Both the position numbers and the translations under genes were made by a program. Shown in pieces: positions 5,380 through 8,514 of a stretch of 64,000 nt of DNA. The stretch is from Planctomycetota bacterium (GTDB lineage: Bacteria > Planctomycetota > UBA8742 > UBA2392): NCBI GenBank assembly GCA_019636215.1, contig JAHBXZ010000009.1:62001-126000 (forward strand), read 5' to 3'. Position 1 is the stretch's first letter, and the number at the start of each line of letters is the position of its first letter. Below the pieces are notes generated by a model. That model was not told the origin of the DNA and did not search any database. It saw nothing but the letters and a program-made list of their open reading frames with translations.

Positions 5380-5524
5380 AACTTCAACGTAACAGTATGA
5401 AAACAAGACCATCTAGAGCCATTTTATCCTTTTTATATTTGGTGTTGCGCGGTTCTGGAGGGCTTGGAAAGATGCCGACGTGATGCGGCAAACCGCCGCT
5501 GGTTCCATGCAACCTGGAACAATC

Positions 5525-6925
5525 ATGTCTGAGGCACCGACTGTTGCCGCGCCAGCGCCCGTGATCGCGCCCGACGAAGCGCGCTTGATCAAGTTCCACA
5601 TCGTCGCGTCGATTGCCTGGCTGGTTATCGGCATGCTGGGCGGCACGCTGATGGGCTACCGCCTGACCAGCCCCGCGGCCGCAGAGTGGCTGGGTGACAC
5701 GGCCGAGTTGAGTTTCGGCCGCATCCGCATGTTCCACAGCCACAGCGTGATCTTCGGCTGGCTGACCAACGGCTTCATGGCCTTTGCGTACTATTCCATC
5801 CCGCGCCTGACCGGTCGCAAACTCTGGCTTTCCAGGCTGGCCTGGTTCAACGCGCCGTTGATGCAGGTTGCGCTGGTGCTGGGCGGCGGCGCAATTCTGA
5901 TGGGCCACGCGCAGGGCGTGGAACACACCGAAGCGCCCTGGTTTGCCGATGCCGCGTTTGCCGTCACCTTTGTGATTTCGCTGCTCAGCTGCGTGGGCAC
6001 GATTCTGCTTTCCGGCGTGCGCAACATGTACGTCAGCCTGTGGTACCTGGTTCTGGGTTTTGTTTTCACGGCCCTGAACTTTGTCATGGCCAACACGATT
6101 GTCGCGTTTGTCGCGCCGGGTGCCGCGGGCGCCTCGCTGGCCGGCCTGTGGATTCACAACGCGGTGGGGCTGTGGGTCACCCCGATGGGCAGCGCCATCA
6201 TCTACTACCTGCTGCCGGTGACGCTCAAGAAGCCGATTGCCAGCCACAAGCTTTCGCTGCTGGGTTTCTGGACGCTGGCATTCTTCTACCCGCTGGGCGG
6301 CAGCCACCACTACTTCTACAGCCCGGTGCCCTGGTGGCTGCAGATGCTGGCCGTGCCGCTGACCTTCAGCCTGATCTTTGTCGTCTACAGTGTCGTGTAC
6401 AACTTCTTTGCCACCATGAAGGGCCAATGGAAGCAGATTACCCACAACATCCCGCTGCGCTGGCTTACGTTCGGCATCTTCAACTACATCACCACCTGCA
6501 CGCAGGGGCCCTTTCACGCGCTGCTGAGTGTCCAGCAGGTCATTCACTTCACGGACTGGGTCGTCGCCCACGCGCACCTGGCGCTGTTTGGCGTTTTCTC
6601 CTGGTGGCTGTATGCCTTCACCTACTGGGTCTGGCCCAGGCTCACCGGCCGCGGCTACAGCAAGGCCCTGGCCGAATGGCACTTCTGGATCACGTTCTTG
6701 TCCTTCTGGGTGCTGTATTACATTCCTGACACCATTGCCGGCCTGATGCAGGGGTTCTTCTGGCTGACGACCCTGCCGCTGCAGGATTCACTCGAGGCGG
6801 CCATGCCGTTCTGGATCACTCGCGCGATCTCGGGCGTGCTGCTGATGGCGGGCACGACGATCTACATCATCAACCTGTTCTTCGTGAAGAAAGCCAGGCA
6901 CGGACTGGAGGTGGCCGGTGAGTAA
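5525..6925 (+). CDS. ccoN: Cytochrome cbb3 oxidase catalytic subunit I
   Basis: Membrane haem-copper oxidase subunit that reduces O2 to water and pumps protons, usually at low oxygen. About 466 residues with roughly 12 membrane segments. Ligand motifs are present: FHSHS (His71/His73), WIHNAVGLW (His211) with a nearby IIYYLLP tyrosine pair, GSHHYFY (His261/262) and VVAHAH (His349/351). I chose the ATG at 5525 because the family motif region begins soon after it; a GTG at 5480 and an ATG at 5483 are alternatives. The last 8 nt overlap the next gene's start. Confidence 0.92.
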   Translation: MSEAPTVAAPAPVIAPDEARLIKFHIVASIAWLVIGMLGGTLMGYRLTSPAAAEWLGDTAELSFGRIRMFHSHSVIFGWLTNGFMAFAYYSIPRLTGRKLWLSRLAWFNAPLMQVALVLGGGAILMGHAQGVEHTEAPWFADAAFAVTFVISLLSCVGTILLSGVRNMYVSLWYLVLGFVFTALNFVMANTIVAFVAPGAAGASLAGLWIHNAVGLWVTPMGSAIIYYLLPVTLKKPIASHKLSLLGFWTLAFFYPLGGSHHYFYSPVPWWLQMLAVPLTFSLIFVVYSVVYNFFATMKGQWKQITHNIPLRWLTFGIFNYITTCTQGPFHALLSVQQVIHFTDWVVAHAHLALFGVFSWWLYAFTYWVWPRLTGRGYSKALAEWHFWITFLSFWVLYYIPDTIAGLMQGFFWLTTLPLQDSLEAAMPFWITRAISGVLLMAGTTIYIINLFFVKKARHGLEVAGE

Positions 6926-8090
6926 CGACGTCAAAGCCGAACGCCCGATGTTTGTGCTGCTGGTGGCCGGCCTGGGGTTTTTCGTGCTGTCGTTTGTTGC
7001 CATGGGCGTCTTCCCGTGGCTGACGATTGACCGCATTCAGGCGCCGGACTCCATGCAGAACCCCTACAAGGACGAAGCCGGCCAGCCCACGGCCGTGGCG
7101 CGCGGCCGCGACGTGTACATCGCCGAGGGTTGCTGGCACTGCCACAGCCAGTTCGTGCGCCCCGTGGCCAATGAAGAATTCCGTTACGGCCCGCGCAGCC
7201 AGGCCTGGGAATCGATGTTCGACATCCCGCACCTGTACGGCACACGGCGCATCGGGCCGGATCTCTCTCGTGAGGCCGGGCGCCGCAGCGACGACTGGCA
7301 CCTGGCGCACCTGTGGAATCCGCGCGCGACCGTGCCGGGCTCGTTGATGCCCAAGTACACGTGGCTGTTCGAACAGAAGGAAGGCAAGTGGCAGCCCACC
7401 GAGAAAGCAACCGACCTGGTGGCTTACCTTCAGTACCTGGGGATTCACTTCAAGGATGATGTTCGAAAGCAGGTGTGGCCGTCGCGTGTCACCGTCAGCG
7501 GATCTCCGACGCCGACGCCCCTGTCCCAGCAACGCGGCAGTGACCTGTTCCAGCACTACTGCAGCGGCTGCCACGGTGAATCCGGCAACGGACAGGGGCT
7601 TGCGATGGACTTCCTTAAACCCTCGGCCAGCGATTTGACCACGCGTTACCTGCCGCGCGAGGAAGTGTTCCGCATCCTGTTCATGGGCAGCGAAGGCAGC
7701 GCCATGCCCAGCTTTGCCGAACTGACCGAAAAAGACCTGTGGGCGATCAGCCAGTATGTGCACGGCATGGGGCGCAGCGCGCGCAAGCCCGCGCTGGAAA
7801 CCGCCACGGTTGCCCAACGCCGCGACCGCGGGGCAGAGCTGTACCGCAAAAACTGCCAGACCTGCCACGGCGAGAACGGCATCGTGCCGCCGGCGATGGA
7901 AAACCTGAAGCCGGCGCCCAAGCACTTCCGCGACCGGCTGTACGAACCGGGCTACCTGGCGGAAGTGATCCGCAAGGGTCGCCCCGGCTCTGCCATGGCT
8001 GGCTACAGCCAGTTCAGCGACGCCGAGCTGCAGGACCTGGTGGCATACATCAGCAGCCTGTTTGACCAGAAGCTGTACCCCGAGGACTGA
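6918..8090 (+). CDS. ccoO: CcoO-CcoP fusion: tri-haem cytochrome c subunit of cbb3 oxidase
   Basis: Residues 1-40 hold one membrane anchor (FVLLVAGLGFFVLSFVAMG). A CcoO-type domain follows, with CWHCH at 72-76, the SQFVRPV motif and a distal GSLMPKY methionine. Two more class I cytochrome c domains follow, with CSGCH at 215-219 and CQTCH at 313-317, each with a later methionine ligand candidate (SAMPSF, SAMAGY). The two extra domains correspond to the di-haem part of CcoP, normally a separate protein. 390 residues, GTG start overlapping the end of ccoN. The fusion would carry electrons to CcoN. Confidence 0.9.
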   Translation: MSNDVKAERPMFVLLVAGLGFFVLSFVAMGVFPWLTIDRIQAPDSMQNPYKDEAGQPTAVARGRDVYIAEGCWHCHSQFVRPVANEEFRYGPRSQAWESMFDIPHLYGTRRIGPDLSREAGRRSDDWHLAHLWNPRATVPGSLMPKYTWLFEQKEGKWQPTEKATDLVAYLQYLGIHFKDDVRKQVWPSRVTVSGSPTPTPLSQQRGSDLFQHYCSGCHGESGNGQGLAMDFLKPSASDLTTRYLPREEVFRILFMGSEGSAMPSFAELTEKDLWAISQYVHGMGRSARKPALETATVAQRRDRGAELYRKNCQTCHGENGIVPPAMENLKPAPKHFRDRLYEPGYLAEVIRKGRPGSAMAGYSQFSDAELQDLVAYISSLFDQKLYPED

Positions 8091-8092
8091 CC

Positions 8093-8347
8093 ATGCGCGG
8101 CCCAACCGCAATTCTGCTGCTGCCCCTGCTGGCGCTGGCCCAGCCCGCGCAGGCGTGCTTTTTCTGCGAGGAAGGTGCGTTCACCACGGCCATGTTTGCC
8201 GTGACGGTGTTCGGCTTGGCGTTTGCGGGCATGGCGGCGCTGTGCATCGCGTACTGGCGAGCCGGCGCTTTCAAGTCCTCCAACCATACAGAGATGCGTG
8301 TGCTGGAAGTGGAAGGTGTGATCCCACAGGCGGAGGAAAAGCCATGA
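8093..8347 (+). CDS. Small exported membrane protein with a CxxC motif, cbb3 operon
   Basis: 84 residues: a signal-peptide-like start ending in AQA, then CFFCEEGAF (cysteines at about 22 and 25), a membrane helix rich in Ala, Phe and Met, and a short acidic tail. The CxxC would lie at the outer membrane surface side, suitable for metal or haem handling, but no function is established. It starts 2 nt after the fused ccoO and overlaps the next gene by 4 nt (ATGA), so it is part of the oxidase operon. Confidence 0.75.
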   Translation: MRGPTAILLLPLLALAQPAQACFFCEEGAFTTAMFAVTVFGLAFAGMAALCIAYWRAGAFKSSNHTEMRVLEVEGVIPQAEEKP

Positions 8348-8514
8348 GCGAAGAGACCAAGCCCCAAGGTGAAGAGTCCGTGCCCACGGCGATTCCGGAA
8401 ACCGGTGACCTCAAGATCCCGCTGTGGGTCAAGCTGATGTGGCTGGGCGGCATGGCCTGGGTGATCTGGTACATCGTGTTCGGCATGCAAAGCAGCCCCG
8501 ACAAGTGGGCGTGA
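8344..8514 (+). CDS. Detached CcoP-type membrane anchor
   Basis: 56 residues. A soluble N-terminus carries GDLKIPLWVKLMWLGG and runs into one membrane helix (about 29-47). This is the pattern of the CcoP N-terminus, where a short 'elnNPLPrWWlw' segment leads into a helix before the haem domains. Here the haem domains are on the neighbouring ccoO fusion, so this looks like the left-behind anchor. A CcoQ-like role is the alternative. The ATGA overlap with the previous gene indicates coupling. It was judged by eye from a short protein. Confidence 0.65.
   Translation: MSEETKPQGEESVPTAIPETGDLKIPLWVKLMWLGGMAWVIWYIVFGMQSSPDKWA

Follow-up and report, generated by a model that had tools for sequence, protein, structure and literature searches.

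A cbb3-like oxidase operon from a planctomycete with a three-haem CcoO and a separate haemless protein resembling the CcoP anchor

In canonical ccoNOQP systems (Rhizobium, Sulfitobacter, PDB 3mk7) CcoN carries a Glu, CcoQ is present and a separate CcoP holds its haems behind a FixP_N anchor. The operon described here lies in a window of 64,000 nucleotides, the whole stretch of DNA analysed, from a Planctomycetota bacterium (assembly GCA_019636215.1, contig JAHBXZ010000009.1). It shares with these systems the CcoN fold and ligands, the CcoO haem domain and a CcoP-like anchor helix, but differs from them in the former points. Enlargement of the cbb3 electron-input subunit by fusion of a cytochrome c domain has been described for the tri-haem CcoP of Neisseria (PMC2924362), where, however, the domain was added to CcoP and not to CcoO as in the window. 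The family NF011054/PRK14486, ‘bifunctional cbb3 subunit II/cytochrome c’, is a precedent for a CcoO joined to a cytochrome c domain but is shorter, with 294 positions against the 390 residues of the window fusion.

Fusions of FixO with two added haem domains in one protein, with a Gln-containing CcoN encoded directly upstream, occur in Paraburkholderia and Acetobacter as in the window, although the identity is only 36–38%. There, a CcoS-like protein of 63 amino acids is encoded next, but no haemless anchor was seen, and two more c-type cytochromes lie upstream. Intact three-haem CcoO copies are found in Acetobacter ascendens and on another Komagataeibacter plasmid, whereas on Komagataeibacter pGX4 (L109, 3844–5107) the protein is split into two annotated genes by a frame change. 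Phyllobacterium zundukense and Sinorhizobium fredii (WP_100001625.1; L114, L115) share with the window the CcoN (Gln), the three-haem CcoO, the CcoS-like protein and the haemless anchor, encoded in this same order; their fusion is longer (561 amino acids), and SafE-like genes follow in the operon, in Phyllobacterium also a CcoI-like gene. Our literature search, with a scope that did not include Ducluzeau 2008, Sousa 2012 and Muntyan 2015, yielded no description of the split CcoP layout or of its link to Gln.

Four genes that overlap or abut form a compact operon on the plus strand of the window, probably an oxygen-reductase operon of a little-noticed cbb3 oxidase branch. The following features were assigned:

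5525–6925, plus strand: CcoN-like catalytic subunit (Pfam COX1, E 6.2e-69)
6503–6505, plus strand: Gln codon in CTQGPF; Glu (FEGP) in CcoP-bearing C-family enzymes
6918–8090, plus strand: three-haem CcoO fusion, 390 amino acids, GTG start (FixO and two Cytochrome_CBB3 domains)
6945–7028, plus strand: membrane helix at the N-terminus of the CcoO part, residues 10–37 (AlphaFold2, low to moderate confidence)
7131–7145, plus strand: haem 1 site CWHCH, the CcoO haem (sequence; probable axial ligand Met144)
7560–7574, plus strand: haem 2 site CSGCH, first added domain (sequence; probable axial ligand Met263)
7854–7868, plus strand: haem 3 site CQTCH, second added domain (sequence; probable axial ligand Met360)
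8093–8347, plus strand: membrane protein of 84 amino acids with signal peptide, CxFC motif (CFFC) and one helix
8344–8514, plus strand: haemless CcoP-anchor-like protein of 56 amino acids (FixP_N 15.3 bits, E 0.016, under the Pfam cut-off of 24.9; profile matches)

The ccoN reading frame (5480–6925) is open from a GTG at 5480, with the ATG at 5525 as the likely start. Its stop is overlapped by the start of the fusion gene, and the genes of the two small proteins overlap by ATGA. A phosphatase gene on the opposite strand follows 3′ of the operon. We consider it quite likely that this operon encodes a terminal oxidase of a cbb3-like branch marked by Gln, in which the tasks of CcoP are divided between a haemless helix and a di-haem cytochrome module.

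In the 390-residue protein, Pfam recognised FixO (PF02433, E 7.6e-43) at residues 31–183 and, C-terminal of it, two Cytochrome_CBB3 domains of the class I cytochrome c type. The three CxxCH sites together with Met144, Met263 and Met360 are invariant in an alignment of 13 sequences (A4). An AlphaFold2 model based on genome loci only (mean pLDDT 77.6, with residues 77–115 poorly predicted) consists of one N-terminal helix followed by the cytochrome domains, and in a Foldseek search it found CcoO (9g6b_B), the tandem di-haem proteins Kuenenia 6h5l_B and actinobacterial QcrC and, more weakly, CcoP. A mono-haem FixO/CcoO domain preceded by an N-terminal helix, as expected of a CcoO, is thus present; the CcoO score of 131.5 bits nevertheless lies far below the TIGR00781 cut-off (200.7), and the best NCBIfam match, NF011054 with 182.8 bits, does not reach its cut-off of 447. 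The preliminary description had reported a single gene with CWHCH, CSGCH and CQTCH in this order behind a CcoO-type anchor, located downstream of CcoN, and had interpreted it as CcoO joined to two haem domains in a cbb3-like operon; the reading frames, Pfam domains and predicted helix confirm all of this. The fixed 1:1 ratio of the electron-transfer domains that it predicted would follow from the fusion.

We identified 12 further loci with the three-haem protein in public genomes (Planctomycetota, one Nitrospirae and one Parachlamydiales metagenome-assembled genome). In each, proteins similar to the 84-aa and the anchor-like protein follow, so all four operon genes recur, and an assembly or frameshift artefact was therefore ruled out. 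Among 294 Planctomycetota genomes, the full-length fusion and the anchor co-occur in exactly the same 11, all belonging to the family of the window's organism (11 of its 16 genomes). Longer multi-haem CcoO fusions with large insertions between the haem domains were seen in other Planctomycetota families (L082, 5010–7118; G048, G116, G162, G201). In Planctomycetota with a true CcoP (L141–L148), ccoN and ccoO lie in one open frame and CcoP has one haem only.

The genome from which the window is taken (91% completeness) contains a single FixO gene and no FixP_N, and neither a second CcoO nor a CcoG gene was found in it. A second CcoP or CcoO hidden elsewhere was consequently discarded within this completeness, and the assumption that no separate full CcoP exists in the genome stood. 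A separate CcoP with FixP_N anchor and haem domains in one chain, typical of the C family, was not found; the haem domains sit on CcoO. At another site of the same genome (L086, C1:252000-270000), a gene for cytochrome cd1 nitrite reductase is clustered with genes for SCO1, a ferredoxin-domain cytochrome b and another COX1-family protein, together a candidate NO-forming and NO-reducing unit.

CcoN possesses the His ligands of haem b, haem b3 and CuB and the helix VII Tyr of the C family. The six ligands and this Tyr are conserved in 51 aligned CcoN sequences (one gap in one row), the first Tyr being invariant. The Glu of authentic C-type CcoN, in contrast, seems to be replaced: Gln stands at the FEGP Glu position in all 42 members of the window branch, against Glu in 9/9 true cbb3 enzymes with a FixP_N CcoP, and in two CcoN chains of known structure a Glu aligns with the window Gln. 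With 218.8 bits, the window CcoN scores far below the TIGR00780 cut-off of 583. In the CcoN tree a branch of length 3.3 with 100/100 support separates the true cbb3 enzymes from the Gln-bearing sequences, and the window fusion group is held together at 100/99. As judged from the sequences, the exchange of the C-family Glu for Gln appears to define a separate cbb3-like branch within the C family of haem-copper oxidases, and it could go along with a different substrate or pumping behaviour. The helix VII Tyr argues for O2 reduction, while the missing Glu would leave other functions possible. A passage of PMC5492636, citing Muntyan 2015, names a Glu in the active centre as mandatory for authentic C-type enzymes and refers to an ‘unknown group’ in that work. 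This Glu may be the FEGP Glu replaced here by Gln, and the ‘unknown group’ may be the Gln branch, which we regard only as a lead.

For the 56-aa protein, hhalign comparison of its family profile gave 97% against the anchors of relatives with a one-haem CcoO and 76% against CcoP anchors, where the alignment keeps the P-x-W motif in register, a match resting on a short membrane segment and lying under the FixP_N cut-off; the decoys (CcoQ, the CcoO helix and CcoS-like proteins) gave 0.4–1.7%. The profile (A1) landed on the true CcoP anchors of three genomes (G095, G002, G034), at the same sites as FixP_N. Because CcoQ remained at decoy level (1.7%) and was ruled out, we regard the protein as anchor-like and not as CcoQ, in agreement with the preliminary description. 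Assembly is a frequent function of the small single-helix proteins encoded in cbb3 operons. The 56-aa protein might accordingly be an assembly factor or a CcoH/CcoQ-like stabiliser instead of a structural stand-in for the CcoP helix, and a solved cbb3 complex with N, O and H subunits (9g6b) fits such a role; we consider this unlikely given the profile match to CcoP anchors with its motif in register, the decoy-level result for CcoQ and the fact that profile A1, searched at E up to 10, matched neither CcoH nor any other PDB chain.

Between the fusion and the anchor gene lies the gene of the 84-aa protein, which had been missed in the preliminary description. It is conserved in all 12 fusion loci and occupies the place where relatives encode the CcoS-like protein. 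Its tail reads YWRAGAF...E.RVLEVEG, and in this family the first helix of the CcoS-like protein gives way to a signal peptide and, at the N-terminus of the mature protein, an invariant CxFC. The family profile matches the CcoS-like family of the one-haem loci at 57% (decoys 0.7–1.7%, hhalign) and CcoS directly at 6%; the CcoS-like family in turn matches CcoS at 82%, and one of its members matches FixS (6.8e-6) above the cut-off. We take the 84-aa protein to be a probable CcoS-like assembly factor that may handle copper through its periplasmic CxFC. In the window and in L006–L017, the gene may represent a periplasmic copper-handling CcoS variant that is named in no library.

About 65 further loci encode a CcoO with one haem. 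Where the flanking sequence sufficed, the haemless anchor is encoded downstream as a separate gene in 58 of 64 of these loci (for example ..YHTYEANPVPWWIALLWVSFFVFGIAYLVVNL) and a two-helix protein with a CcoS-like tail in 62 of 64. A separate periplasmic di-haem cytochrome is encoded upstream of ccoN in at least 45 of 52, a lower bound owing to the filters applied. A CcoI-like P-type ATPase often comes next, as judged by eye from the translations. Since the haemless anchor occurs in these relatives too, it is a normal separate component of the branch, with fused and unfused CcoO alike. In one-haem loci we also noticed, close to the free di-haem cytochrome, a gene of about 210–230 residues with a ..WPP[KR]G[FY].. 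motif (L072, 2630–3316; L027, 1738–2367), whose L072 copy matched no family in Pfam. In two Nitrospirota loci (L053, 1771–3606; L059, 1–1461), two consecutive di-haem cytochrome genes precede ccoN.

The origin of the two extra haem domains was addressed with profiles of the haem pair. The window-type profile scored 145 bits against the Paraburkholderia/Acetobacter fusions, up to 104 bits (median 88) against the free di-haem cytochromes, up to 55 bits (median 41) against di-haem CcoP and 17 bits against a c4-like control. The reverse profile, built from the free di-haem cytochromes, scored the window type at 111/96 and CcoP at 34/30. In the haem-pair tree CcoP is separated from the other sequences at 100/100. 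The window type has the Paraburkholderia/Acetobacter type as its sister (97/95), and the rhizobial fusions occupy a position of their own. The haem pair of the Phyllobacterium/Sinorhizobium fredii fusion scores best against the free di-haem cytochromes (218 bits), and this fusion may therefore have arisen independently.

The preliminary description had proposed that CcoP's own haem domains moved to CcoO and left the anchor behind as a remnant. The resemblance of the 56-aa protein to CcoP anchors would fit such a transfer, as would TIGR00782 (ccoP) being the best di-haem family for the C-terminal part of the fusion (71.6 bits); moreover, when the CcoN tree is rooted with the true cbb3 enzymes, the fusion groups diverge early within the Gln branch, allowing an early transfer and a later split in the one-haem clade. 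We nevertheless consider this scenario quite improbable and CcoP disfavoured as the source, because the haem pair scores higher with the free cytochromes encoded upstream (88–111 bits) than with CcoP (30–55 bits), CcoP is excluded from the haem-pair group in the tree, and the haemless anchor exists where CcoO has only its one haem. Since the extra domains match the free cytochrome much better than CcoP, a separate di-haem module has probably been attached to CcoO, or else became detached from it in other members. The comparisons favour a branch with its own di-haem module, free in some members and fused in others. It may have been fused once and the fusion later undone, or there may have been two or more fusions; the CcoN and haem-pair trees are not in full agreement and contain long branches.

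If the tasks of CcoP are divided in this way, the haemless one-helix protein would pack against CcoN at the position of the CcoP helix and complete the CcoN complex. The periplasmic di-haem cytochrome, provided by its own gene upstream of ccoN in most members and joined to the CcoO C-terminus in the window lineage, would take electrons from the donor. Electrons would then pass from a soluble c-type cytochrome or cupredoxin via haems 3/2 of the fusion, the CcoO haem 1 and haem b to haem b3-CuB and O2. In canonical cbb3 enzymes the CcoP helix borders a proton path, which would explain why the helix is kept without haem. It is quite improbable that nitric oxide or another substrate than O2 is what this haem-copper reductase mainly reduces: the Gln in every branch member and the cytochrome cd1 nitrite reductase, by which NO may be made in this genome, speak for it, but no sequence lacks the helix VII Tyr that takes part in the cbb3 His-Tyr cross-link, the best solved relatives of the window CcoN are cbb3 CcoN chains (9g83_t, 6xkw_n; 1.3e-49) with NorB only distant in the PDB comparison (5e-8), and the genome's nirS cluster has another COX1 gene.

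The branch occurs in Planctomycetota, Verrucomicrobiota, Myxococcota, Nitrospirota, rhizobia and others. With about even confidence, we see in it a widespread cbb3-like branch composed of CcoN(Gln), CcoO, a CcoP-anchor subunit devoid of haem and, either free or fused, a mobile di-haem module. Its layout coincides perfectly with the Gln in place of the C-family Glu, and routine annotation merges it with cbb3. Cultured carriers are available in Paraburkholderia fungorum, Acetobacter ascendens, Phyllobacterium and Sinorhizobium fredii. The branch represents a natural experiment on the purpose of CcoP: if dozens of operons retain a CcoP-type helix without haem and have the haems elsewhere, the helix must do more than carry haem, and, should the reading as a widespread branch be true, it would have a role of its own, in proton entry or stability, separable from electron transfer.
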